A stretch of 64,000 bases of DNA from Roseivirga echinicomitans. GTDB lineage: Bacteria > Bacteroidota > Bacteroidia > Cytophagales > Cyclobacteriaceae. A program made the translations under genes and the position numbers. The notes below the pieces were generated by a model, which saw only the letters and a list, made by a program, of their open reading frames with translations, made no database searches and had not been told where the DNA came from. The stretch spans positions 186,001-250,000 of the forward strand of contig NZ_LRDB01000050.1 in the NCBI RefSeq assembly GCF_001592935.1, in the 5' to 3' direction. This document shows, piece by piece, positions 9,523 through 19,652 of the stretch (position 1 is the first letter of the stretch; every line of letters begins with the position of its first letter).

Positions 9523-10764
9523 ATGAAAACCTTCAAATACATTACGCTTACCCTTCTTGCCATCATCCTTTGGGCCGTTTTTATCATTTATGGTATTTCC
9601 GATGGTTTCATTTTAAAAAGCCTTTCTAAAGATGAAAGCCCAGAAGCTTTTGTAGAAGCCACCAAAGCGCAAATCGAGCAAGAGTTTGTCGGCAATATGG
9701 CCATGGTGTTGGTGGAGAATGGAAAAGTAGCGGAGCAGTTCTTCCATTCTGAGGATAAGCCCGTGCATGAAAACACCGTTTTTCAAATGGCATCGGTCAG
9801 TAAATGGGTGACTTCTTGGGGAATTATGTCACTCGTGCAAAATGGCCAGTTGGATTTAGATCAACCGGTGGACGACTACTTAACGCGTTGGCATTTACCC
9901 GCCAGCGACTTTGACAATAGTAAAGTAACCGTGCGCAGGCTGCTCTCCCACTCTGCTGGTTTGGTGGACGATTTGGGCTATGAAGGTTTTGGGCCCGATG
10001 AAACAGTGCAAAGCCTCGAAGAATCGCTTACGAAGGCGGCCGATGCAGGCTATTCAGATGGCGTGACCAAGGTGGGTGTAGCACCAGGAACGCAATACAT
10101 GTATTCTGGAGGCGGCTATACTTTGCTACAATTGCTGATTGAAGAAGTCTCAGGTCAATCTTTTCAAGACTACATGACAGAGACGGTTTTTAAACCGCTG
10201 GGCATGAACAACTCTACCTTTGATTTAGCCCTGCGCCCTGACCTTGAATTGGCCACGCTTTATAAATCTGATGGTACTGTTTCTGCTCCTTACAAGTTTA
10301 CTTCATTGGCCGCTGCCTCGCTGTATACTTCTGCGGCAGACTTAACCAAGTTCTTATTGGCCAATATCAACCCGAACCCAGTATTGAAGCCTGAGACCAT
10401 CACACAAATGACCCAAGCGGAAACCTTTATTGGTCAAATAGGCGTCTATGGCATGGGACCTCATTTGTACAGCCAAAACGCTGAAGATTCTTATGTGATT
10501 GGACATGACGGCAACAGCAATAGACCGACCGTAAATACTGCGGCTCGCATTGATTTGATGGCTAAAAACGGCATTATCATTATGGAAATGGGCAGCCCTA
10601 ATATTGCTTCCACCCTAGCAGACGAATGGTTATTTGAAGCCGCTGGCATTGCCGACTTTGTGGTCATTCAGCGCAATATGTCCTATTTGATTATGCTCTT
10701 CAGCATTGGTGCCCTTTTGATGATTATTGGCGCTGTGGTTTTAGCGAGGAGGAAAAGAGGTTAG
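9523..10764 (+). CDS. Class C beta-lactamase-like serine hydrolase, membrane anchored
   Basis: A 413-aa protein with an N-terminal TM helix (ITLTLLAIILWAVFIIYG) and a C-terminal one (LIMLFSIGALLMIIGAVVLA) followed by RRKRG, so the catalytic domain sits outside the cytoplasmic membrane. Active-site motifs are SVSK (SxxK, nucleophile Ser), YSGGGY in place of YxN, and HDGN in place of KTG. These fit the AmpC/PBP4/esterase-like family rather than a true beta-lactamase. Substrate unknown: D-Ala peptide, ester or small peptide. The last about 150 bp of the gene recur twice more at 12386-12478 and 12793-12950, showing that its 3' end has been a repeated rearrangement or insertion point. It converges on the DUF3307 gene. 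Confidence 0.88.
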   Translation: MKTFKYITLTLLAIILWAVFIIYGISDGFILKSLSKDESPEAFVEATKAQIEQEFVGNMAMVLVENGKVAEQFFHSEDKPVHENTVFQMASVSKWVTSWGIMSLVQNGQLDLDQPVDDYLTRWHLPASDFDNSKVTVRRLLSHSAGLVDDLGYEGFGPDETVQSLEESLTKAADAGYSDGVTKVGVAPGTQYMYSGGGYTLLQLLIEEVSGQSFQDYMTETVFKPLGMNNSTFDLALRPDLELATLYKSDGTVSAPYKFTSLAAASLYTSAADLTKFLLANINPNPVLKPETITQMTQAETFIGQIGVYGMGPHLYSQNAEDSYVIGHDGNSNRPTVNTAARIDLMAKNGIIIMEMGSPNIASTLADEWLFEAAGIADFVVIQRNMSYLIMLFSIGALLMIIGAVVLARRKRG

Positions 10765-10786
10765 ATGGTAAGATCAATAGAAGCGG

Positions 10787-11521
10787 CTAATTAATCATCA
10801 GTTGAACGAGCAACCCAATAAAAATAGCGAGAGTAAAGCTTAACAGCGTCCCGATTAATATGTACTCTGTTTTCTTTTGTTCTTTGCCCTTCTTTAAATC
10901 GCCAAATCGAAAAACTGATTTTGCAGCGAGTAAAAAGCCTATGGGTTCCCATTGGTTGAAAATGATAAAGGTTAAAATGAGTAGTCGTTCTATGATGCCA
11001 ATCCATTTGCCCGCATCTTTTAGGCTTTCTTGGTTTTGTTTATCGCTTAATTGCTCTTGCCATGATTTGGTGAGGTAGCCAATCAGTACACCTGATGGTA
11101 GCGCTACTATAATGTATGCAATAGCGATGATGAGGAACGTTGAATGAAATTCAAAAGAACTTAGATCAATCATTGCTGCGATTGGTTTTGGTATTAGCAG
11201 CATCCATAGCAAGATAATGCTGATAAAGTGAGCAAATTGATCGCCTAGATAAATCCACATGTTGTCTTTCTTGATGCTGATTTTTATCCAATCGATAATA
11301 CCATGCGCAATGGCCATGGCAATTGGTGCCCACCAATTCGCCCAGTCGGCTATAAAGAGATAAGTCAACACCGCTACGATGACGAGGTGCCACCTGAATT
11401 GGGAAGACCTTGGGCCATTTTCTCTCTTGCCCTTGACCATGCCGTTGGTTTGAAAAACAAAATCGGCCAAGAGGTGAGCTATTATAAGTCTCAGTAATAG
11501 GGTTATACTAGATTCATCCAT
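10787..11521 (-). CDS. DUF3307 multi-pass membrane protein
   Basis: A 244-aa protein with about six or seven hydrophobic segments. The N-terminus LLLRLIIAHLLADFVFQTNGMV and the spaced polar motifs HLLADF, RWHL, HGIIDW and DQFAHF are the DUF3307 pattern. The conserved His and Asp residues inside membrane segments recall membrane-bound metal-dependent hydrolases (YdjM/DUF457 group), but no activity is known. A hydrophilic loop at about 150-165 splits the TM blocks. Its start overlaps the 3' end of satD by 19 bp, so the two are translated from one message. A 16-residue fossil of a second copy of its C-terminus lies at 12501-12551. It may be the membrane effector of SatD (inference). Confidence 0.8.
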   Translation of the reverse strand: MDESSITLLLRLIIAHLLADFVFQTNGMVKGKRENGPRSSQFRWHLVIVAVLTYLFIADWANWWAPIAMAIAHGIIDWIKISIKKDNMWIYLGDQFAHFISIILLWMLLIPKPIAAMIDLSSFEFHSTFLIIAIAYIIVALPSGVLIGYLTKSWQEQLSDKQNQESLKDAGKWIGIIERLLILTFIIFNQWEPIGFLLAAKSVFRFGDLKKGKEQKKTEYILIGTLLSFTLAIFIGLLVQLMIN

Positions 11522-12168
11522 TTCAATTGTTTTTCAAATCTTTTCAAATAAGGCTTTATGGCATCTATCTTACTTAAGTTTAACCTTTTACTAATTACTC
11601 TTTGCGACTTACCTAGTATTTTCCCTATCTCTTCTTGAGTAGCCTCTGTAAGTAGAAGTGATCTATAAACAGCGTCTGCTTGCGCAGTGGTCCACCTGTC
11701 TGTGATTACCTCAATTAATGGTACTACGGCCTCTAACTCTGCATTGATCGATTCATCGTTGGTTTTGATTTGTATGAGTGTTCCTTTTTCTTTCATTTTA
11801 TCGAAGGCCCTTCCAGAAATGGTAAATGGCTCGCCAGATGATTCGCTTAAATTATTTCCATTAGGATAATCCTCTAGTACACCAATACCAAGAGACATTC
11901 TGGCATCCCACTGCACTTCTTTACTCCCCTTCTTGTTGCTGTACCTCTTTAAACCTGCCTTAATAATTAATAGTACAAGTAGTGCTTTATTTGCTTGACG
12001 AGATATAGACTGAAAACTATCGCCTCTATAAATATCTAGAATGAAATGTTCATCTTGATGTTGTTGTATATCATCACCTATTTGATGCAGTACTTTTTTA
12101 AAATCAGCTGTGATTAGTGTAGACCCTACTATATCTCCTGTAATTACTGCTTTTATCTTATTGTTCAT
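11503..12168 (-). CDS. SatD-family protein: cyclase-like domain plus C-terminal HTH
   Basis: A 221-aa protein. Residues 1-150 carry the SatD pattern AVITGDIVGST (Asp12) and YRGDSFQ (Asp50), then ARMSLGIGVL and FTISGRAFDKM. These align by eye with the two metal Asp motifs and later strands of class III nucleotidyl cyclases, so a cyclase-like palm fold is plausible; catalysis is not shown. Residues about 160-205 (ATQEEIGKILGKSQRVISKRLN) form a sigma-70-region-4-like helix-turn-helix. Just upstream lie palindromic 22-bp sites at 29-bp spacing, the likely binding targets, suggesting autoregulation. It is transcribed first and overlaps DUF3307. A diverged N-terminal fossil of a paralogue lies at 12554-12640. 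Family assignment good; signalling role is inference. Confidence 0.78.
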   Translation of the reverse strand: MNNKIKAVITGDIVGSTLITADFKKVLHQIGDDIQQHQDEHFILDIYRGDSFQSISRQANKALLVLLIIKAGLKRYSNKKGSKEVQWDARMSLGIGVLEDYPNGNNLSESSGEPFTISGRAFDKMKEKGTLIQIKTNDESINAELEAVVPLIEVITDRWTTAQADAVYRSLLLTEATQEEIGKILGKSQRVISKRLNLSKIDAIKPYLKRFEKQLKWMNLV

Positions 12169-12176
12169 AGCTACAA

Positions 12177-12231
12177 TTTAGAACCTTTAAAGGTTCTAAA
12201 CAAGTAATAGAACCTCTATGGGTTCTATTAC
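12177..12231. promoter_or_regulatory. Paired palindromic operators upstream of satD
   Basis: Two sites share the form (A/T)TAGAAC-N8-GTTCTA(A/T). The first, 12178-12199, is a perfect palindrome that extends to 24 bp. The second, 12207-12228, has arms that extend to 10 bp each (12204-12231). Their centres are exactly 29 bp apart and the spacer reads ACAAGTA. The first site begins 9 bp upstream of the satD start codon, a position that would block promoter or ribosome access, so it fits repression by the SatD HTH. Confidence 0.7.
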
Positions 12232-12262
12232 AAAGCCTACATTATTTGGTGCTATCTCTACT

Positions 12263-12313
12263 TTAGTACCTTCAGCAGTTCTAAGCGTGCTTTAGTACCT
12301 TTAGGAATACTAA
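12263..12313. promoter_or_regulatory. Second, diverged pair of the same palindromic operators
   Basis: Sites at 12263-12284 (TTAGTAC-N8-GTTCTAA) and 12292-12313 (TTAGTAC-N8-ATACTAA) have the same 7+8+7 layout and again a 29-bp centre-to-centre spacing, but with GTAC replacing GAAC in the left arms. They lie 35 bp beyond the first pair. They may be operators of a lost paralogue or extra sites for satD. Confidence 0.55.
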
Positions 12314-12385
12314 CAGTACTGAATCTAATATGTCGTTTGGAACATCAACCTGACCGGTAACTGCTGCCGTGATTCGTGCTTCTAG
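12314..12385 (-). pseudogene. Fossil 3' end of a type I restriction specificity gene (hsdS), first copy
   Basis: Read on the minus strand, this stretch encodes RLEARITAAVTGQVDVPN and then drifts into noncoding sequence. The ITAAVTGQxDV segment is characteristic of the extreme C-terminus of many HsdS proteins. It closely matches the second fragment at 12731-12805. A weaker alternative is a SatD N-terminus (AVITGDI), but the QxDV ending favours HsdS. Confidence 0.5.
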
Positions 12386-12478
12386 CCTAGCAGACGAATG
12401 GTGAGTTGAAACTGCGAGTATTGAGCCATCTTTTTGTTAAAGGTAAGGTGGTTTTGGGAAGAAGGAAAAGAGGTTAGA
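12386..12478 (+). pseudogene. Degenerate duplicate of the serine hydrolase 3' end (copy B)
   Basis: The segment begins with CTAGCAGACGAATGG, identical to the codons in the intact gene at 10616-10630, loses similarity in its middle part (a deletion or replacement), and resumes with GGAAAAGAGGTTAGATGG as at the true stop. The Leu codon after Asp-Glu-Trp has become TGA, the same change as in copy C, so the two copies share a broken ancestor. Confidence 0.75.
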
Positions 12479-12500
12479 TGGATAAAATCACTAAAAACAG

Positions 12501-12640
12501 CTAATTAATGATTAGCTGAACGAGCAACCCAATAAAAATAGCGAGCGTAAAGTTATTCGGTGTAAAACCTCTCTGTAATCACCTTCTATAGCTGTAGACC
12601 TAATAATATCACCTGTAATAACAGCAGTAACTATCTTCAT
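12501..12640 (-). pseudogene. Fossil satD-DUF3307 pair collapsed by internal deletion
   Basis: On the minus strand a start at 12640 opens with MKIVTAVITGDIIRST and continues to EVLHRI (to 12554), clearly a SatD N-terminus that differs from the intact SatD at about half its positions. It then joins directly to the last 16 codons of a DUF3307 gene in another frame (FTLAIFIGLLVQLIIN, stop at 12501-12503), which matches the intact protein at all but one residue. Read through the junction, the SatD frame stops at 12512 after 42 codons. It is the remnant of a second pair that lost about 1.2 kb. Confidence 0.8.
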
Positions 12641-12649
12641 AGCGTTGAT

Positions 12650-12730
12650 TTTATAACCTTCTTGCGTTATAAACAAAGAATATAACCTTTAAAGGTTCTA
12701 AACAAGGGATAGAACCTCTAGTGGTTCTAT
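12650..12730. promoter_or_regulatory. Three palindromic operators at exact 29-bp period upstream of the fossil satD
   Basis: Sites at 12651-12672 (TTATAAC-N8-GTTATAA, perfect arms), 12680-12701 (ATATAAC-N8-GTTCTAA) and 12709-12730 (ATAGAAC-N8-GTTCTAT, perfect arms) have centres 29 bp apart. The 7-bp spacers are ACAAAGA and ACAAGGG, close to the ACAAGTA of the intact satD operators. The first site ends 11 bp before the fossil start codon. The mixed middle site has one arm of each type. Confidence 0.7.
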
Positions 12731-12805
12731 TTAGTTAGCTTCTTGTAGTCCTCTTACATCAGTCTGACCAGTAACCGCTGAGGTAATCAAGGTTTCCACC
12801 CTAGC
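12731..12805 (-). pseudogene. Fossil 3' end of hsdS, second copy
   Basis: The minus strand encodes ARVETLITSAVTGQTDVRG, then LQEAN and a stop at 12731-12733. The LITxAVTGQxDVRG ending followed by a few residues and a stop is how many type I restriction specificity subunits finish. The fragment is cut at its 5' side by the third copy of the serine hydrolase tail. It suggests that an earlier restriction system stood here in the same orientation as the present one. Confidence 0.6.
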
Positions 12806-12950
12806 AGACGAATGGTGAGTTGAAGCCGCTGGCATTGCCGACTTTGTGGTCATTCAGCGCAATATGTCCTATTTGATTATGATCTTCAGCATCGGTGCCC
12901 TTTTGATGATTATTGGCGCTGTGGTTTTAGCGAGGAGGAAAAGGGTTTAG
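12793..12950 (+). pseudogene. Duplicate of the serine hydrolase 3' end (copy C)
   Basis: About 155 bp match the intact gene at 10607-10764 with only a handful of substitutions, from TTCCACCCTAGCAGACG to the stop region. One pair of changes turns the Leu-Phe codons into TGA-Val. The last bases coincide with the 3' end of the minus-strand gene at 12947, so the restriction operon abuts this repeat exactly. The pattern is that of a direct repeat left at an insertion or recombination boundary. Confidence 0.85.
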
Positions 12951-13501
12951 ATAGTTGGGGGGATTTGTTGAGTGTCAATTTTCAATTGAAAGAGTTCTAG
13001 TTGATTCCTATCAATATCATCTTGAATTGTAATATACTTTCCATATATCCAGTTTTCAAGTCTCGTTTTGACATGTTGCAACGTTCTTTCCAAGTTTGTC
13101 AAGCTTCCAAAACACAGAAAATTGAACCCAAAAGCTATGAGCAATGTCGCTTCGGAATAGTTTAAAGTGTCTTCAAGATTATTGATATAACCCATATGAA
13201 AACCCAGCAACATTAGGCCCGCCCAAGCAGCGACAAATAAAACCCTAACCCATAAATAGATGCTTCTGAACCTTCTTTCTAGCTTCGTTTTAACTTCGAT
13301 TTTCTTAGCTATAAGATCAACGAGCTTTTTGTGCCTGCTTTGAGCTTTTTCCTTATTTTCCTTGAATTCTTCTGGAAATCCCCCTTTAGCACCAATATCT
13401 ACTTTTCCCAAAGTGGTTATATAGACTATGAGAGCAAAGAATAGTATCACAACTATTAAAACAATAAGCCATTTAGGGACTTTGACTTCATCATGTGCCA
13501 T
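12947..13501 (-). CDS. Three-TM membrane protein at the end of the restriction operon
   Basis: A 184-aa protein of no family I recognise. It has TM1 at about 11-30 (WLIVLIVVILFFALIVYITT), a charged coiled-coil-like linker (FKENKEKAQSRHKKLVDLIAKK), a TM hairpin at about 82-100 and 117-135, and a soluble C-terminus. It starts 5 bp after the stop of the PD-(D/E)xK/DUF5655 gene, so it is the last cistron of the operon. Small membrane proteins placed last in defence operons are often effectors that damage the membrane; that role is inference. Its stop lies inside the repeat-derived boundary, so the end may have been formed at the junction. Confidence 0.7.
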   Translation of the reverse strand: MAHDEVKVPKWLIVLIVVILFFALIVYITTLGKVDIGAKGGFPEEFKENKEKAQSRHKKLVDLIAKKIEVKTKLERRFRSIYLWVRVLFVAAWAGLMLLGFHMGYINNLEDTLNYSEATLLIAFGFNFLCFGSLTNLERTLQHVKTRLENWIYGKYITIQDDIDRNQLELFQLKIDTQQIPPTI

Positions 13502-13506
13502 AATCG

Positions 13507-14421
13507 CTAGTTGATATGATACTTATAACTCTGCTTGATTAAGCTCATTAAGTAATCCAAGTCACTATCTGGGGTTACAACTACTTCATAGTCCCCTACT
13601 CCGAACGTTCCAATATTTGATACATCTCTAAATAGATTTTTAGGATCATCCAATGCTCCTTTTTTCAAATTGATTCTGAGTTTGAGCTTGTTTTTCTGTA
13701 CCTCAAAATCCGTAACGATTCGTTTGTTGAGTTTGAATCCAATGTACTGTTTGACTGGATTGATTTCGATATTGTCTAATTCTAAAATTCGATCTCTAAA
13801 GGCGGTTGCCAACTCTCTAATCTCAGGGTTGCCTTTCTGATAGTGATCTTCTTCCGTATAAACCACTATCTCCTTGCTAACCTGTTCTGCCCTCTCATCT
13901 TTTGAGCTTATGGTTTTCACGCTCTCCTGGCTAGTGGGCTTGTGTTGATTGAGAATGACTGTGTCATTTGAATATTTCTTGATCTCCCAAAGATCAAATG
14001 GTAAGTCTTTAAATTCGATACTTTGTTTTTGAAAGGTTGTAAACTGAGGTGATATAAAAATTACTTTAGATTGACTCCAATCCACATCACCTTTTTTCAA
14101 AGATCTATTGGTGCATTCCTGATATTCTAAGATAAAATCAGCCTTATTATTTAGTAATAATGATAGATAAGAATAGCCCTGATCAATAACAGAATAGCTA
14201 TGGCCTTTTTTGTACTCGATGATTACAAATGACTGGGACTGTTGGTCAAATCCAAGTGTATCAACCCTAAAGTTATTCAACTGAAATTCAGTCTTTACAA
14301 ACTCAAGTCCAAATAGAACTTCTAAGTTATCTTCAACTAATGATTGAATGTCCTTTTCCAGTTTAAAAGGAGTGTTTCTAACTTCTTCGAGTTTAGATTT
14401 ATTGATTTTGTATAAGTCCAT
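13507..14421 (-). CDS. PD-(D/E)xK nuclease-like protein with C-terminal DUF5655
   Basis: A 304-aa protein. Its N-terminal half has a nuclease-type motif: FRVDTLGFD (Asp54), IIEYKKG (Glu69-x-Lys71) and a following DQGYSYLS (Gln81), as in DUF91/NucS-like and type I R-subunit nuclease cores. The C-terminal about 110 residues (RILELDNIEINPVKQYIGFKL and KKGALDDPKNLFRDVS) match DUF5655, a domain often found beside type I restriction systems. A linker at about 165-200 separates the two. The start directly follows the previous stop (no gap), so it belongs to the operon. A nucleolytic or DNA-binding accessory role in defence is likely; the target is unknown. Confidence 0.75.
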   Translation of the reverse strand: MDLYKINKSKLEEVRNTPFKLEKDIQSLVEDNLEVLFGLEFVKTEFQLNNFRVDTLGFDQQSQSFVIIEYKKGHSYSVIDQGYSYLSLLLNNKADFILEYQECTNRSLKKGDVDWSQSKVIFISPQFTTFQKQSIEFKDLPFDLWEIKKYSNDTVILNQHKPTSQESVKTISSKDERAEQVSKEIVVYTEEDHYQKGNPEIRELATAFRDRILELDNIEINPVKQYIGFKLNKRIVTDFEVQKNKLKLRINLKKGALDDPKNLFRDVSNIGTFGVGDYEVVVTPDSDLDYLMSLIKQSYKYHIN

Positions 14422-15453
14422 TTATCTCCCTATTTCCGTGGCATGCAATGTGAATGAATCTGCATGATCATTTGTGATCAGTCCTTTATAAATCTTGTCA
14501 ACCTCAGATTTGACTAGCCAACGTGAACCAATGAAATTCTTTTTAAAGAGTTCATCAAATGTGTTGCTGGATAATGTGGAATCTTCAATGTCCGCACGAT
14601 ATAAAATCTTGTCTCTTCTGCCCATTTTTGTGTAGGAATCTAAATCGCATATTTGGAGGTGAAACCCACTAGATTTTAGTGGACTATATTGATCAACCAA
14701 TCTATCTGTTGGTCTTAGGAATGCACTACAGTGTGGACATCTATATTCATAAGATGATCCATCACAATAACCTTTGGAGCATATTTCTCGCGTCATTCGC
14801 TTAAGTTGATCGTCAAGATTGGTTGCTTGACTCCAATACAGAGCGTCACCGTCCCAGAGCTTATATTGTATGTGAACAAACCTGATTTTATCAGTTGCAT
14901 GATCATAAACCTCATATATTAAATCGCAGCCCAATGCTTGCTCTACTTTACCAGGATGTGCGAATCTCACACGCAATAATTTGTTATCATTTAACTGATA
15001 ATCTTTGTGTTTTCCATAAGCTTCTCTAAGAATTGGCATGTCCGAGGGGATATTGAAATCACGCATCAAAATTTCATTCTCAGTAAACATCATCTGTTGA
15101 GATTCGAAATAATTCAAAGCCTTATTTAGACGTTTTATTCTTCTATCAATCGCATCTGTCTCACTCTGTGAGTTTCTTTTAGATATTCTCAAACGATTAA
15201 TATCATCACTTATCAACTTGACTGGGCTTTCACCTTCGGCAGCAGCCAATTGACTGTATTGTCTTACGATCTTAGGATCTTTGTTTTGTTTGATTAAACC
15301 GATGTCATCATGGAAAACCTCTGGCTCAATGTCTTGTGCACGTTGAATTGTCTCAGAATATGAAGGCTTCTTACCTTTTGCCATTCCAAACATGTCTCTT
15401 ATTGCATTAAGAGCAGCCCATAAGTTGTTAAGTTGCTTTGATGATTCGGTCAT
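14422..15453 (-). CDS. Unknown restriction-operon protein with zinc ribbon and QxK nuclease-like motif
   Basis: A 343-aa protein that I cannot place in a named family. Residues 1-125 are helical and charged. At about 176-200, GCDLIYEVYDH then VHIQYKLWDG gives Asp177 and Gln196-x-Lys198, the arrangement of Mrr-like (E/Q)xK nuclease sites. Cys225, Cys230, Cys239 and Cys242 (CPHC) look like a zinc ribbon. The C-terminal region (GSRWLVKSEVDKIYKGL) is unassigned. It sits 10 bp after the 107-aa gene and adjoins the DUF5655 gene directly. The motif reading is by eye, so nuclease function is a hypothesis. Confidence 0.6.
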   Translation of the reverse strand: MTESSKQLNNLWAALNAIRDMFGMAKGKKPSYSETIQRAQDIEPEVFHDDIGLIKQNKDPKIVRQYSQLAAAEGESPVKLISDDINRLRISKRNSQSETDAIDRRIKRLNKALNYFESQQMMFTENEILMRDFNIPSDMPILREAYGKHKDYQLNDNKLLRVRFAHPGKVEQALGCDLIYEVYDHATDKIRFVHIQYKLWDGDALYWSQATNLDDQLKRMTREICSKGYCDGSSYEYRCPHCSAFLRPTDRLVDQYSPLKSSGFHLQICDLDSYTKMGRRDKILYRADIEDSTLSSNTFDELFKKNFIGSRWLVKSEVDKIYKGLITNDHADSFTLHATEIGR

Positions 15454-15463
15454 TAGAAAATAC

Positions 15464-15787
15464 TTAGTACCCTAATTCCTCCATTTCATTCTTTAATTTC
15501 TCAAGCCAGTCAATAACTTCACCTTGCTCTTTCAGCTCCCAAATTTTATCATCTAGCTTCCGTAATTTTTTTACGGCCTCTTCATTATCCTTATGATCTA
15601 TAATGACTTTGGAGATAGTTGTTGCTAAAATCCTTTTTCCTCTTAATTTAATATCCCCAACAAAATTGGCATATCGATCTTGTGCCGCATAGCCAAATGG
15701 GTCTCCCCATTTAGAGCAATTGTCAAAAGCTGCTCTTACTATTCCCTCAAATAAGAAGGCTGGATCATCTTCATTTAAAAAATACAT
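15464..15787 (-). CDS. Small protein of unknown function in the restriction operon
   Basis: 107 aa, opening MYFLNEDDPAFLFEGIVRAAFDNC and ending in a strongly helical, charged stretch (EEAVKKLRKLDDKIWELKEQG). No membrane segment, signal or metal motif. The start lies 29 bp after the hsdM-S stop and the stop 10 bp before the zinc-ribbon gene, so co-transcription is near certain. It may be an adaptor or toxin-control protein of the system; I do not recognise the family. Confidence 0.65.
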   Translation of the reverse strand: MYFLNEDDPAFLFEGIVRAAFDNCSKWGDPFGYAAQDRYANFVGDIKLRGKRILATTISKVIIDHKDNEEAVKKLRKLDDKIWELKEQGEVIDWLEKLKNEMEELGY

Positions 15788-15816
15788 AATATATTATTTT
15801 GGATACAAGCTATAAT

Positions 15817-17931
15817 TTACAATTCCCCTTTAAAAGCGGAATCCAATAAACTGGCCTTCAATGACTTAAGGTTATTTATTTTTACTTCTATTTCTTTGAT
15901 TAGCATATTACTGCCATCATTTACTGTCCTAACTTTTTCATTGATTATTTCTTGATCTTTAGGGTCTATGGGGTATTTAATAATAGTCTCTTTCAGCATA
16001 CTTGAGTTAACACCTGCTTGGCCGATCCATTTTTTGCAAATTCTGAGAAAATAGCCCTGCTGGTGAAGGTTCATTAAGTAATTGACTAAGTATTCAGCAT
16101 TTATTTTATTCTTGTCAACTCGTATTCTAGTAAGATGATTACTGAAACCATAATCATAATCTTGATCAATCAGTGCTGTTTTTCCAACAAGCTCTTTACT
16201 ATTTGTGTTATTGAATAAAATATCGCCTGATTTGAGTTTACTCTTCTTAAGATCTACTTTCCTGTTATCTATTTTGATGAGTAAATCAAAATTTAGCTTT
16301 CCTGTAAAGTCAATATTATGCGTTCTTAAATGAACAAACCCATTAGGTTTTTCATTGGATTTATTACAAGCAAAACCAGAAACCATCTCAGTTATTAAAT
16401 TTTCTAGCTTATCTTCTTTCAAACTTATAGTCCTATTTAGCTCTCTATCTAATACACTTTTTCTTAGCTTTTTAGTTAGATTTTCTATTAGAGCATCATC
16501 CTCTTTGATTACATCTAAAAGATCTTTGGGGCTTTTATATTCGATTGATATTTCCTTGCTTGGATTCTTTGCTGAGAGATCGAATTCCTTGATTTCATTT
16601 ACATGAACAGTCCAATCCTGTTTTCCTTTGTTTCTATTCTTTGGGTTTTTATAGAGCCTGACAAAATCAGCCATGTGTTCATCACTCAAAGGCTTATTCT
16701 TGGTCAGTTTGTAAGGAGGTTCTACTTCGTAATACCAAATGTCAGAAGTAGCTCCTTTTCGTTCGAAGAAGATTACGTTTGTCTTTACTCCACTATAGGG
16801 TAAAAACACGCCACTCGGCAGACTTAGTATAGTATGAAGATTGAAGTGATGTAGCAAATCCTCCTTTACTTTAGCAAAAGCTGCATTGGTTTGAAAAAGC
16901 ACTCCTTCTGGCACAACAATGGCGGCTTTGCCATTCAGTTTCAGCATCTTCATAAAGTGTTGTAGGAAGAGGAGTTCCGTAGCATTGCTCTGGACTGGAA
17001 AATTTTGCTGAATCTGACTCTTTTCCTTGCCGCCAAATGGAGGGTTTGCAAGAATGATATCGTGCCGTTCTTTTTCCTGAATATCTCGGATGTTCTGAGT
17101 TAATGTATTCTGCTTGTAGACATTAGGGCTTTCAATGCCATGTAATATCATGTTCATCATGCCCATCACGTAACCAAGTGATGTTTTCTCAAAGCCAAAA
17201 AATGTATCCTCCTGAATCGTTTTAAGCTGTGTCGTGTTGTAAGACTCACGTTTTTCAGATTGCATCAAAAACTCAAATGCATCCACCAAAAAACCTGCAC
17301 TTCCGATAGCACCATCGTAAATACTCTGCCCTACTCTAGGTTCTATTACTTCTACAATTGATTTGATTATTGCTCTAGGGGTATAGAATTCTCCTGAGTT
17401 TCCACCGTCACTACCCATGCCTTGCAAGAGCCCTTCATACACCACAGATAATTCATGTAGTTCTTCTTGGCTTTGGAAGTCCAAAGTATCTACTATGTCT
17501 AGTACCTCTCTAAGCGTATGCCCGCTAGCTATTTTGTTATCTAAATACTCGAAAATAGCCCCGATTTTATACTTTGGAGATTTAGGATGATTTATGCCTG
17601 ATTTAGAAAAATCCTTTAAATATGGAAATAAGTGATCATTTACGAAATCATTCAGATCCTTCCCAGTATCAACTTTCTTTTTTGGAGTGCCATCATCATT
17701 CTTTGGACATGCCCATTGAGACCATCTAAATTGGGGCGAAATAATGAAATCATATTTTTCACCATTTAATTCAGCTGTATCGTACTTATTCTCTTCATAG
17801 TCATTAAAAAACTTAAGGAAAAGCACCCAGCTTATCTGTTCGGTATAGCCCATCGCTCCATTGATACCATCATCCCTTCTCAGGATATCCGTAATGCGAT
17901 TGACTTTATTTTGTATCTCTTTTATACTCAT
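15817..17931 (-). CDS. Type I restriction HsdM fused to a single-TRD HsdS
   Basis: 704 aa. Residues 1-130 match the HsdM N-terminal helical domain (DDGINGAMGYTEQISWVLFL). The N6-adenine methyltransferase core follows, with SAM motif I IYDGAIGSAGFL (about 204-215, a variant of DPxxGxGGF) and catalytic NPPF at 296-299, then GVFLPYSGVKTNVIFF. After a linker (about 480-520), residues 525-704 resemble one HsdS target-recognition domain with its conserved helix, ending KSLKASLLDSAFKGEL. A complete HsdS has two such halves, so two fused chains would be needed for a full specificity unit, probably recognising a palindromic or symmetric site. The start overlaps the ATPase stop by 4 bp (ATGA). Confidence 0.9.
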   Translation of the reverse strand: MSIKEIQNKVNRITDILRRDDGINGAMGYTEQISWVLFLKFFNDYEENKYDTAELNGEKYDFIISPQFRWSQWACPKNDDGTPKKKVDTGKDLNDFVNDHLFPYLKDFSKSGINHPKSPKYKIGAIFEYLDNKIASGHTLREVLDIVDTLDFQSQEELHELSVVYEGLLQGMGSDGGNSGEFYTPRAIIKSIVEVIEPRVGQSIYDGAIGSAGFLVDAFEFLMQSEKRESYNTTQLKTIQEDTFFGFEKTSLGYVMGMMNMILHGIESPNVYKQNTLTQNIRDIQEKERHDIILANPPFGGKEKSQIQQNFPVQSNATELLFLQHFMKMLKLNGKAAIVVPEGVLFQTNAAFAKVKEDLLHHFNLHTILSLPSGVFLPYSGVKTNVIFFERKGATSDIWYYEVEPPYKLTKNKPLSDEHMADFVRLYKNPKNRNKGKQDWTVHVNEIKEFDLSAKNPSKEISIEYKSPKDLLDVIKEDDALIENLTKKLRKSVLDRELNRTISLKEDKLENLITEMVSGFACNKSNEKPNGFVHLRTHNIDFTGKLNFDLLIKIDNRKVDLKKSKLKSGDILFNNTNSKELVGKTALIDQDYDYGFSNHLTRIRVDKNKINAEYLVNYLMNLHQQGYFLRICKKWIGQAGVNSSMLKETIIKYPIDPKDQEIINEKVRTVNDGSNMLIKEIEVKINNLKSLKASLLDSAFKGEL

Positions 17932-19652
17932 AGGTTGTCTCTAAAAAAACTGTAAAGGTGTGTGATGTCTTCGGATATTTCAATAGCTGGAATTTGAGCG
18001 ATCAACTGATCTAATTGTGTTTCATCAAAACCATTTGCTTTGTAAAATGGATGAGTTAATGGCTTACACCTGTATTCTGCTACGTCTCCATTCCCGTCAC
18101 AATTATTGCCAATAGCAGGAATATTATTGGGAAATGCTCTTTGAAGCTCGGGAGACATGTCAAAATGATTGAATGCCGAGTTACTGATTAAATAATTTTC
18201 AATTTCTCTACGTTTCCAACTCAATAGAAAATAATTTGGCTGGTTTCCTGATTGATTTCTCAGCCTTTGAAACTCTTGCGGAATAGTTACACGGTGATCT
18301 ACTCCAACTAAATTGACCCCTAAATCATCTTTATCGCAAAGGGCAAATATATTTCGAGTTTGAATTTCACGTCCATCGACTGCTATGATAAATTCCTTGA
18401 CAAATCTGAGTTTACTCTCTCCAAATATCATATTTGGATTGTTATATCCAGAGTGCCTTTTCACTGGAATAATTTTATCTAAGATTTCAAGGCAACCAAC
18501 ACCTAATTTCTTGACAGATAATTTTTTAAAAATTGTCCAATCATCCTGATCATCAACCAGAACTATATCCATTATTCTAGAAGCAATGAAATATTGTTGA
18601 TCAGTATCACCTATAATATCTGATAGCCTTTTAAGTAACTCATTTATAGCCAATCCGGTTTCTATTCGTCCGCTCTTGATATATCTGATTCGGTCAAAAT
18701 TTGAATTCAATAATGAATCGGCTGAATGAGTTGTAGTTAAAACTCTTCCTTCAATATCATCCAGTCTATTCCAGAGCTTTTTAACATTCTTATAGTATAA
18801 ATGGGAGTCCACTTCATCTAAAAGAAAAATGGTGTTTGGGGCATCGAACAAATCAAGCAAAGCGTACATGCTTAATAATTGATATTCCCCATCACTTAAG
18901 TACTTGAATTCTAATCCTGAACTGAACTTCAATTGAGATTCGTGCATTTCAATGTTCGAGAGCCATCCATGAGAACTCAAAGCGAAAAATGAGAATATTT
19001 TAGAAGCATCCTTATGGGTAAAAATGTCAAAGACGTTATTTGAATCTAATTTCACCCACCTTTTTACGAGATTGTCATTGTTTCTGAAATCAAAATCTAT
19101 TTCTAACCCTTCAATTAGATTTTCCAATGTTTCATGAAAGTCTGTCTTCCTCAGCAATTGAGCTTCAGGATCAAACTCACCAGTTTCTTCAGCTGCGATT
19201 TCAGCTCTAATCTTTTGAGTATAATATTTACGCACTCTGAGCCTGAACCAAAACTCAGAGGACTCATCATCTCCCAAATCGTTTTCTGCTATGTAATTAT
19301 GATCTACCAAGTATCTTCTTACAAAACCATCACGTTTTAGTTGACTCGCAAAGAAAATGAGAATTCTAACCCAATCATAATTGAAGTAAAAAGACTTAAT
19401 AGATTGACCTTCTTCCCTAATAAACCGTGTGCTTTTCTTTTTATAAGTATTGAATAGATCACTGAACAGCTCATTCTGACCAGAAGAGAAGCATATTATT
19501 TTTTGGTCTTCATTGTCAAGGTAATCTTCAAATATGGATTCCAAAATTGAAGACTTGCCAGAACCATTTTCACCGATGAAAGTCGTGACACCTTGATTTA
19601 AGGTAAAAGTTTGTGGTCTCCGAACAAGTTTGGAAGTAAATGTTATGTCCAT
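17928..19652 (-). CDS. OLD-like AAA ATPase with DUF4435/TOPRIM-like C-terminus
   Basis: 574 aa. ABC-type ATPase motifs: Walker A GENGSGKSS (27-35), signature YLSDGEYQLLS, Walker B TIFLLDEVDSH and the His of TTTHSAD. From about 350 there is a TOPRIM-like part: VLVDDQDDW in the place of the usual LVEGxxD, FALCDKDD (DxD) and REIENYL, as in DUF4435/OLD-family proteins. The usual Glu of the first TOPRIM motif seems replaced by Asp. It is inserted between hsdR (2-bp gap) and hsdM-S (4-bp overlap), so it is an integral part of the operon rather than a passenger. OLD-like proteins are known phage-defence nucleases (Gabija, Lamassu-like relatives); here it probably senses or cuts DNA. Confidence 0.82.
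   Translation of the reverse strand: MDITFTSKLVRRPQTFTLNQGVTTFIGENGSGKSSILESIFEDYLDNEDQKIICFSSGQNELFSDLFNTYKKKSTRFIREEGQSIKSFYFNYDWVRILIFFASQLKRDGFVRRYLVDHNYIAENDLGDDESSEFWFRLRVRKYYTQKIRAEIAAEETGEFDPEAQLLRKTDFHETLENLIEGLEIDFDFRNNDNLVKRWVKLDSNNVFDIFTHKDASKIFSFFALSSHGWLSNIEMHESQLKFSSGLEFKYLSDGEYQLLSMYALLDLFDAPNTIFLLDEVDSHLYYKNVKKLWNRLDDIEGRVLTTTHSADSLLNSNFDRIRYIKSGRIETGLAINELLKRLSDIIGDTDQQYFIASRIMDIVLVDDQDDWTIFKKLSVKKLGVGCLEILDKIIPVKRHSGYNNPNMIFGESKLRFVKEFIIAVDGREIQTRNIFALCDKDDLGVNLVGVDHRVTIPQEFQRLRNQSGNQPNYFLLSWKRREIENYLISNSAFNHFDMSPELQRAFPNNIPAIGNNCDGNGDVAEYRCKPLTHPFYKANGFDETQLDQLIAQIPAIEISEDITHLYSFFRDNL

Follow-up and report, generated by a model that had tools for sequence, protein, structure and literature searches.

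Palindrome arrays with a 28- or 29-bp step before satD genes point to a self-controlled satD-DUF3307 system in bacteria and archaea

The window analysed here is a stretch of 64,000 nucleotides from a contig of Roseivirga echinicomitans. It contains a two-gene cassette on the minus strand that consists of a satD-like gene and a gene for a DUF3307 membrane protein. Palindromic sites and the remains of a second satD allele are found before the intact satD gene, and 162-bp direct repeats flank both the cassette and the fossil. The features of this region are as follows.

10608-10769, strandless: left copy of a 162-bp direct repeat, 3' end of a beta-lactamase-like gene
10787-11521, minus strand: DUF3307 membrane protein gene, overlapping the end of satD
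11503-12168, minus strand: intact SatD-like protein, 221 aa, with a predicted N-terminal palm domain (D12, D50) and C-terminal HTH
12178-12199, strandless: putative SatD operator 1, perfect 22-bp palindrome TTAGAACCTTTAAAGGTTCTAA, promoter-proximal (sequence, shuffles)
12207-12228, strandless: putative SatD operator 2, 29 bp from operator 1 (sequence, shuffles)
12248-12255, strandless: right half-site GGTGCTAT standing alone, its centre implied at 12244.5; probably what remains of a third operator (tentative)
12263-12284, strandless: putative decayed operator with TTAGTAC/TTAGAAC arms, 6/7 (sequence, genome pattern search, shuffles)
12292-12313, strandless: putative decayed operator with TTAGTAC-like arms, 6/7, 29 bp after the 12263-12284 site
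12448-12552, strandless: copy of the stretch after DUF3307 (10735-10838, 86.7% identity), deletion-joined to the fossil satD
12554-12640, minus strand: fossil satD, 28 codons after the start codon, orthologue of the intact gene in the congener G006
12651-12730, strandless: putative three-operator array of the fossil satD allele, orthologous to the G006 array

A single satD turned up in searches of the whole genome. Its product aligns with the Pfam family SatD (PF16264; residues 10-208 over profile positions 5-201 of 211) with 26.3 bits and an E-value of 7e-6. This is below the gathering cut-off of 29, and the protein is therefore named SatD-like here. The same profile is matched by 15 of the 22 proteins in our alignment A1 at E 0.01. 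SatD proteins above the cut-off (Haloplanus, Natronosalvus, Fusobacterium) have the same kind of operon partner, with DUF3307 or a relative encoded next to them. In the window, this partner scores 73.1 bits against a gathering cut-off of 23 for DUF3307 (PF11750), a family listed in Pfam without a function. NCBIfam gave a SatD match far below the cut-off only, and none for DUF3307. The partner also matches SieB, below the Pfam cut-off. Its model is all-helical, and the best hit among solved structures (Z 6.5, rmsd 6.3, 112 aligned) was rejected as not meaningful.

The predicted model of SatD (pLDDT 95) shows a palm domain followed by an HTH that resembles sigma-70 region 4; the recognition helix (residues 189-199) is the second helix of this predicted HTH. 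The palm of the model matches the DosC GGDEF domain (Z 10.3, rmsd 2.8, 128 aligned), the class III cyclase Rv1625c (Z 9.3, rmsd 3.7, 147 aligned) and Cmr2/Cas10 (Z 9.0, rmsd 3.7, 147 aligned), and we predict a palm fold of the GGDEF/Cas10/class III cyclase kind. According to an earlier study (PMC2904730), palm enzymes carry acidic residues where strand 1 ends and in the hairpin formed by strands 2 and 3. In the SatD model, D12 lies near the end of strand 5-14 and D50 between strands 43-47 and 51-56, and this acidic pair is kept in 211 (D12) and 215 (D50) of 217 SatD proteins. The window SatD has no GGDEF/GGEEF motif and carries RGDSF in its place. An assignment to the class III cyclases by sequence alone was rejected, as it would rest on an E-value of about 0.05 to Ma1120.

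The original prediction described seven palindromes, each with two 7-bp arms around an 8-bp centre, in three arrays with an exact 29-bp period. All seven are present at the predicted centres (12178-12199, 12207-12228, 12263-12284, 12292-12313, 12651-12672, 12680-12701 and 12709-12730), and the period is exact within each group. Read from the sequence, the arms of the sites are complementary, in this order, at 7/7, 7/7, 6/7, 6/7, 7/7, 5/7 and 7/7 positions. Between 12100 and 12800 we counted 14 sites when up to two mismatches were allowed, compared with a mean of 12.4 for first-order Markov shuffles. Site pairs 29 bp apart number four in this stretch, and only 0.1% of 2000 shuffles came to as many. 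The unusual feature is thus the spacing and not the number of sites. In the whole window, 29-bp pairs with at most one mismatch start only at 12178 and 12263 (0.23 expected). With two mismatches allowed, the number of pairs rises to 23 (14.8 expected), so that the weakest sites are not conspicuous by themselves. The pattern TTAGAACCN6GGTTCTAA has five matches with up to two mismatches in the genome, all of them at the satD locus. When three mismatches are counted, the 28 genome matches are close to the 23 obtained for the reversed pattern, which is nearly chance; a SatD regulon elsewhere in the own genome was rejected, since the matches outside the locus are near chance.

The division into three arrays held for the group at 12651-12730 but may not hold for the pair at 12263-12313. 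The lone half-site GGTGCTAT bridges this pair to the first one; with its implied centre the steps become 29, 27, 29 and 29, and we are probably looking at a single decayed array of five sites. The TTAGTAC pair is then probably the decayed far end of the intact satD's own array, which explains it better than the proposal that such mixed sites are intermediates of operator divergence.

That a fossil satD lies upstream of the intact gene is borne out by the congener G006: positions 12554-12949 are 88.9% identical to the start of its satD together with the array. The remainder of the fossil gene is deleted, with the junction at about 12552/12553. The right copy of the 162-bp repeat (12794-12955) is 95.7% identical to the left copy, and an older partial copy at 12342-12423 shows 76.8% identity to 12756-12837. 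Between the window and G006, the DUF3307 proteins are 96.7% identical and the SatD proteins only 53.6%, and the change falls at the gene border. This is the most discordant pair (0.97 vs 0.54) among 210 loci compared pairwise. Swapping of modules as a general habit is not supported, for the 21 pairs with DUF3307 identity of at least 90% have a mean SatD identity of 0.93. Since the fossil is the orthologue of the G006 gene, and the intact SatD is a 53.6% allele on a 96.7% DUF3307, the locus looks like a block replacement. Tandem units probably formed and decayed here, and the regulator-plus-operator block beside DUF3307 was probably replaced. Operators had been proposed to diverge along with a duplicated regulator. 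Two diverged satD alleles with partly different arms do exist at the locus, but a history of plain duplication and divergence is not supported.

The same geometry was found before many other satD genes. SatD homologues are present in 22 of 99 related genomes (own included) and in 107 of 395 genomes drawn from the phylum. For each locus we determined the best self-match lag, in the range from 15 to 60, within the 160 bp before the satD start. In set 1, which leaves out L001 and L039 as copies of the window's own gene, this lag is 28 in 59 and 29 in 36 loci (95/131), and nine more have it at 56-58, a double step. Set 2 comprises 90 loci obtained via named genomes, plasmids and viral contigs; 89 were scored after the start-less L167 had been dropped, and 71 of them show a lag of 28 or 29, 58 at a score of at least 15. 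Taken together, the strongest period is 28 in 102 and 29 in 64 loci, that is, in 166 of 217 satD-like genes. A few loci occur in both sets (for example L082/L169) and are merged by clustering; with clusters formed at 50% identity, the 28/29 step is seen in 72 of the 97 representatives.

A palindrome-pair model that was free to take any step from 22 to 36 chose 28 or 29 in 106 of 128 loci. The model exceeded the 99th percentile of shuffles in 68 of the 128, all of them at 28 (40) or 29 (28), whereas the shuffled sequences had no preferred step. Other ORFs at the same loci, chosen mechanically, served as controls. The step was found before 95 of 128 satD genes and 25 of 429 control ORFs, and at a score of at least 15 before 85 of 128 and 3 of 429, respectively. 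These counts and those of the palindrome-pair model (n=128) also leave out the start-less L131-L133.

The step extends far beyond the Bacteroidota. It is 29 in Serratia, 28 in Idiomarina and Pseudoalteromonas, 28 and again 28 on a Vibrio lentus plasmid, and 29 on plasmids of Enterobacter kobei and of a Klebsiella. On the E. coli plasmid pEC34A a step of 29 is visible by eye, with an automatic score of only 11. All three haloarchaeal plasmids have a step of 29: by eye, Haloplanus has two pairs of 29 bp each and Halorientalis likewise, the two being near-identical DNA, and Natronosalvus has 29. As bacteria and archaea share the step despite their differing promoters, it is likely that the protein determines it, for instance through contact of adjacent dimers, and not the spacing of the promoter.

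There are also loci off the 28/29 step, 51 of the 217, and ten of these have a lag of 56-58. Family f37 has no locus among 14 with a step of 28 or 29 at score 15. An even draw of 369 gammaproteobacterial genomes gave 14 matches, nine of them with DUF3307 and three with the step; the three include the Serratia genome used as centre, so that two of eight new loci have the step and six do not. No 28/29 step was seen at the one Fusobacterium locus or in Sphingomonas. At L096 and L100, satD starts 3 and 22 bp after a gene for 564-566 aa, which we take to be glutaminyl-tRNA synthetase, and has no array, as if it had been relocated to another operon. Some array-less satD genes may lie within longer operons. 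At L019, L022 and L023, satD comes after the end of one and the same gene, probably that of a formate-tetrahydrofolate ligase, which suggests a common insertion site.

While the step is shared, the arms differ between subfamilies (TTATCGG, TTATAAG, TTATTAC, TTATCGT, TTATTCC, TTAGAAC and others). The original prediction had proposed comparing the recognition helix with the arms, and this comparison turned out positive. Among 76 loci in 58 clusters, the strongest background-corrected covariation is that of residue 191 with arm position 6 (0.46) and of residue 194 with arm position 7 (0.39). The calculation covered SatD columns at least 85% filled and eight arm positions, and kinship was weighted without a tree. 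Further pairs reach at most 0.23 and lie partly outside the HTH or the helix (e.g. residue 29 with arm position 5). The fitting of arms favours TTA at positions 1-3, which may cause bias there but not at positions 6-7.

The pattern at residue 194 is chemically sensible: K or R goes with C, E or Q mostly with G, and G with T. As learned on set 1, the rule gave the right letter at arm position 7 for 24 of 37 set-2 proteins (17 K with C, seven E/Q with G) and the wrong one for 13. The commonest training letter would have been right in seven cases and the commonest test letter (always C) in 18, and 0 of 10,000 permutations reached 24, although the test proteins are partly related and no tree correction was applied. 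All test proteins are less than 70% identical to the training proteins; five of 42 had been dropped, three at 70% or more and two with an unseen residue. By inspection, a helix of type VYKN...G pairs with TTMAACC-type sites both in Bacteroidota and on pEC34A. Since the arms track residues of its recognition helix, we take SatD to be the binder. The claim that the sites are operators linked to SatD's own HTH is thus supported both by the common geometry before homologues and by the covariation, and from sequence evidence the palindromes are very probably SatD's own operators. A strictly even lattice of half-sites (14/14.5 bp) fits some arrays and was rejected. The covarying positions 6-7 are about 10 bp apart across the dyad, and we therefore retained one dimer per palindrome.

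On the minus strand of the window, a TTG (12203-12201) is followed by 20 nt of palindrome, the heptamer TAAATTG (12180-12174), 5 nt and the ATG. The heptamer deviates from TANNTTTG, the -7 element of Bacteroidota. Of 217 loci, 88 have TANNTTTG in the 90 bp that precede the start, against 15.4 in shuffles, a count that is not fully independent of the arrays, because arms ending in TAT help to create the element; it often continues the right arm (GCTTATATTTG and similar). In 25 instances the G of the -7 element stands 3-5 nt before the start codon, which implies a nearly leaderless mRNA. Two palindromes in Serratia have a -35-like TTGACA between them. The spacer ACAAGTA, which had attracted attention for its partial conservation, probably supplies a -33-like TTG when read on the strand of the gene and would not reflect a protein contact. 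As the proximal palindrome covers the promoter spacer and the -7 region, a bound dimer should block the polymerase, and autorepression of satD by SatD is the most likely form of control.

The direction of control could also be the opposite. SatD might activate its own promoter in class II style, if its HTH reached RNA polymerase from just before the -35/-33 element. The likeness of the HTH to sigma-70 region 4 would suit such a role. So would the Prevotella-like loci, where the palindromes stop upstream of the -33 element, and several enterobacterial loci; in both, inspection shows the proximal palindrome directly next to the -33/-35 element or overlapping it. We nevertheless consider activation unlikely, because in the window, in Serratia and at many other loci a palindrome occupies the spacer (-33/-7 or -35/-10) or the -7 element itself. 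A more radical alternative is that SatD does not bind at all and that the palindromes serve another regulator or form hairpins in an RNA leader, into which they could indeed fold once transcribed. This is very improbable: where the -7 box is 3-5 nt from the start codon there is no leader to fold, the arm letters follow the SatD helix residues within and beyond the training set, and archaea have the same geometry. The arrays might finally be incidental tandem repeats produced by slippage near a duplicated locus, a thought encouraged by the tandem duplication and deletion in this part of the window. It is hardly credible, since the step recurs at most loci with many different arms and is rare before control ORFs; on the control count at a score of at least 15, slippage repeats were rejected. 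Autorepression through SatD-bound operators remains our preferred reading of the arrays.

The partnership of SatD with DUF3307 is as regular as the arrays. DUF3307 comes directly after satD in 121 of 131 loci of set 1 and in all 89 of set 2. Strong DUF3307 matches (E 1.4e-20 or better) number 21 in the 99 related genomes, including a broken one, and every one of them falls in a genome with satD. The only satD genome without a strong match, G036, encodes a SatD with E12 and K50 and has no array. Seven genomes without a satD match (G005, G007, G010, G037, G066, G069 and G091) have weaker, mostly short DUF3307-family matches; six of these genomes have open frames of roughly 118-134 aa, one of which contains an in-frame TAG, and the seventh has a frame of 48 aa. 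Where a palm aspartate is lost, DUF3307 is lost or broken in 4 of 5 cases, compared with 1 of 209 otherwise; the Fisher test on these numbers ignores phylogeny and omits L118 and L128 (contig ends) and L130 (a false match). This co-loss is in line with a restraint of DUF3307 by SatD, and it is also explained if a dead module decays as a whole. One of the four cases is L008 (genome G057), where SatD has Y in place of D12 and DUF3307 is interrupted by an in-frame TAG.

We could observe satD-DUF3307 on several kinds of mobile carriers. Within the genus, satD is patchy and occurs in 6 of 19 genomes, own included. A 3.8-kb plasmid with Rop and MobA has it, together with DUF3307, as its main cargo. 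It lies next to primase and integrase genes in a satellite that we read as P4-like, it occurs on a phage-plasmid-like contig with ParA/ParB and tail genes, and it is carried by haloarchaeal plasmids. A tblastn search of the INPHARED phage genomes gave no SatD or DUF3307 match. In the congener G006, a type II CBASS (CD-NTase, E2/ThiF, JAB, Cap15; L228, 7118-11121) adjoins satD-DUF3307 at a site whose flanking genes are those found in the window, and we regard this site as a variable defence slot. On a Sphingomonas plasmid, genes for a Pycsar effector and for a cyclase stand beside satD. PADLOC models do not match SatD or DUF3307 at E 0.01. In the window, a defence-island-like block extends over 13507-19652 with these genes:

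13507-14421: PDC-S18 candidate defence protein
14422-15453: uncharacterised 343-aa protein
15817-17931: type I methylase fused to a specificity-like end
17928-19652: AAA ATPase with weak matches to AriA, PtuA and GajA models

What the module does might be less dramatic than defence. It is a real possibility, though one we rate below even, that satD-DUF3307 serves the envelope or the response to acid stress in an ordinary way, under its own autoregulator, and has no role in defence or addiction. The absence of PADLOC matches agrees with this, and so does the name satD, which goes back to acid tolerance in S. mutans according to a citation in a Tn-seq meta-analysis of S. pyogenes (PMC11323703). 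The same paper reports satD as an accessory gene of S. pyogenes (178 of 249 genomes) that alone among accessory genes ranks in the upper quarter by essentiality, which would be odd for an ordinary module. The patchy occurrence, the role as cargo of a minimal plasmid, the P4-like satellite and the phage-plasmid-like carriers argue against it as well. The neighbouring CBASS, Pycsar, type I methylase and candidate defence genes do so too, as individual cases. An accessory gene that is essential where present is what one expects of a gene restraining a harmful partner, so the S. pyogenes satD fits a restraint by SatD. Because of the patchiness, the mobile carriers, the defence neighbours and the streptococcal gene, we suggest that satD-DUF3307 may be an addiction- or Panoptes-like guard.

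Several known systems resemble the module in part. Panoptes consists of the mCpol protein OptS and the 2TM effector OptE and is often coupled to CBASS (PMC12657218). Like Panoptes, the satD module places the gene of a palm-fold protein of the GGDEF/Cas10 kind beside that of a membrane protein, and it is coupled to CBASS in G006. Unlike Panoptes, SatD has an HTH and putative operator arrays, and its partner, with an all-helical model and no meaningful match to a solved structure, is not known to be an S-2TM-beta effector. Pycsar pairs a nucleotide cyclase with an effector. SatD, a cyclase-like protein paired with a membrane protein, recalls this arrangement but has a DNA-binding domain and, as noted, no PADLOC match. 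Type II toxin-antitoxin operons are autoregulated through palindromic operators over their own promoter. The satD operon is similar in that the HTH protein comes first and putative palindromic operators cover its own promoter, and, should the S. pyogenes case hold for it, in being essential wherever it occurs; it differs in its multi-pass membrane partner DUF3307 and in the enzyme-like domain of SatD.

The streptococcal satD of the S. mutans sat operon is the namesake of Pfam SatD, and the passages of PMC11323703 consulted, which describe it as accessory yet essential in S. pyogenes, do not mention operators or DNA binding. The repressor RptR of a restriction-modification and phage defence island is a different protein, and the paper on it refers to palindromes often (PMC12255303). 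Beyond the name, we found little on SatD in the literature searched, which did not extend to subscription papers and preprints. Among the matches listed, antiphage and autoregulation papers do not mention SatD or DUF3307. In this literature, "SatD family" is used in a single paper, an annotation survey that infers acid resistance from the name, and DUF3307 likewise in a single one, as an entry in a phage gene table.

Taken together, we propose the following course of events. A SatD dimer would bind each 22-bp palindrome through its C-terminal HTH, with adjacent dimers held at the fixed step of 28 or 29 bp. Occupancy of the promoter-proximal operator would most likely shut down the satD-DUF3307 operon. 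The palm domain would most likely bind or make a nucleotide that reports on the state of the cell and keeps the DUF3307 membrane protein restrained. The operon would then be a self-limiting, mobile module of a defence- or addiction-like kind. We regard this joint reading, from SatD-bound operators and autorepression through the nucleotide palm and the restraint of DUF3307 to the defence or addiction module, as probable and hold it with good confidence. A more specific version is offered as speculation that we ourselves find somewhat doubtful: an as yet unrecognised nucleotide-signalling guard of bacteria and archaea in which the palm enzyme is its own repressor and lines its promoter with dimers in a strict 28/29-bp lattice, with a readable code from helix to arm. 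DUF3307 would be lethal unless held back by the nucleotide that SatD makes or by the nucleotide-bound state of SatD, and a phage would release it by altering or depleting the nucleotide or by disturbing the lattice of SatD on DNA.

Autoregulated operators as such have been known before; the geometry of the arrays, the code from helix to arm and the pairing of a palm-HTH protein with DUF3307 appear to be new. The arrays provide a handle that does not require a phenotype, and they argue that SatD is a DNA-binding autoregulator. The code predicts the places where SatD would bind, and a step maintained from Bacteroidota to haloarchaea while the arms change freely speaks for a geometry set by the protein. 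The proposed restraint of DUF3307 would explain, in a way open to testing, how satD can be accessory in S. pyogenes and still essential. The results also set a palm-fold protein that has a DNA-binding domain next to immunity of the CBASS, Pycsar and Panoptes kind. Our results point to a widespread, uncharacterised two-gene system that appears, from its sequences, to control itself in distant bacteria and archaea.
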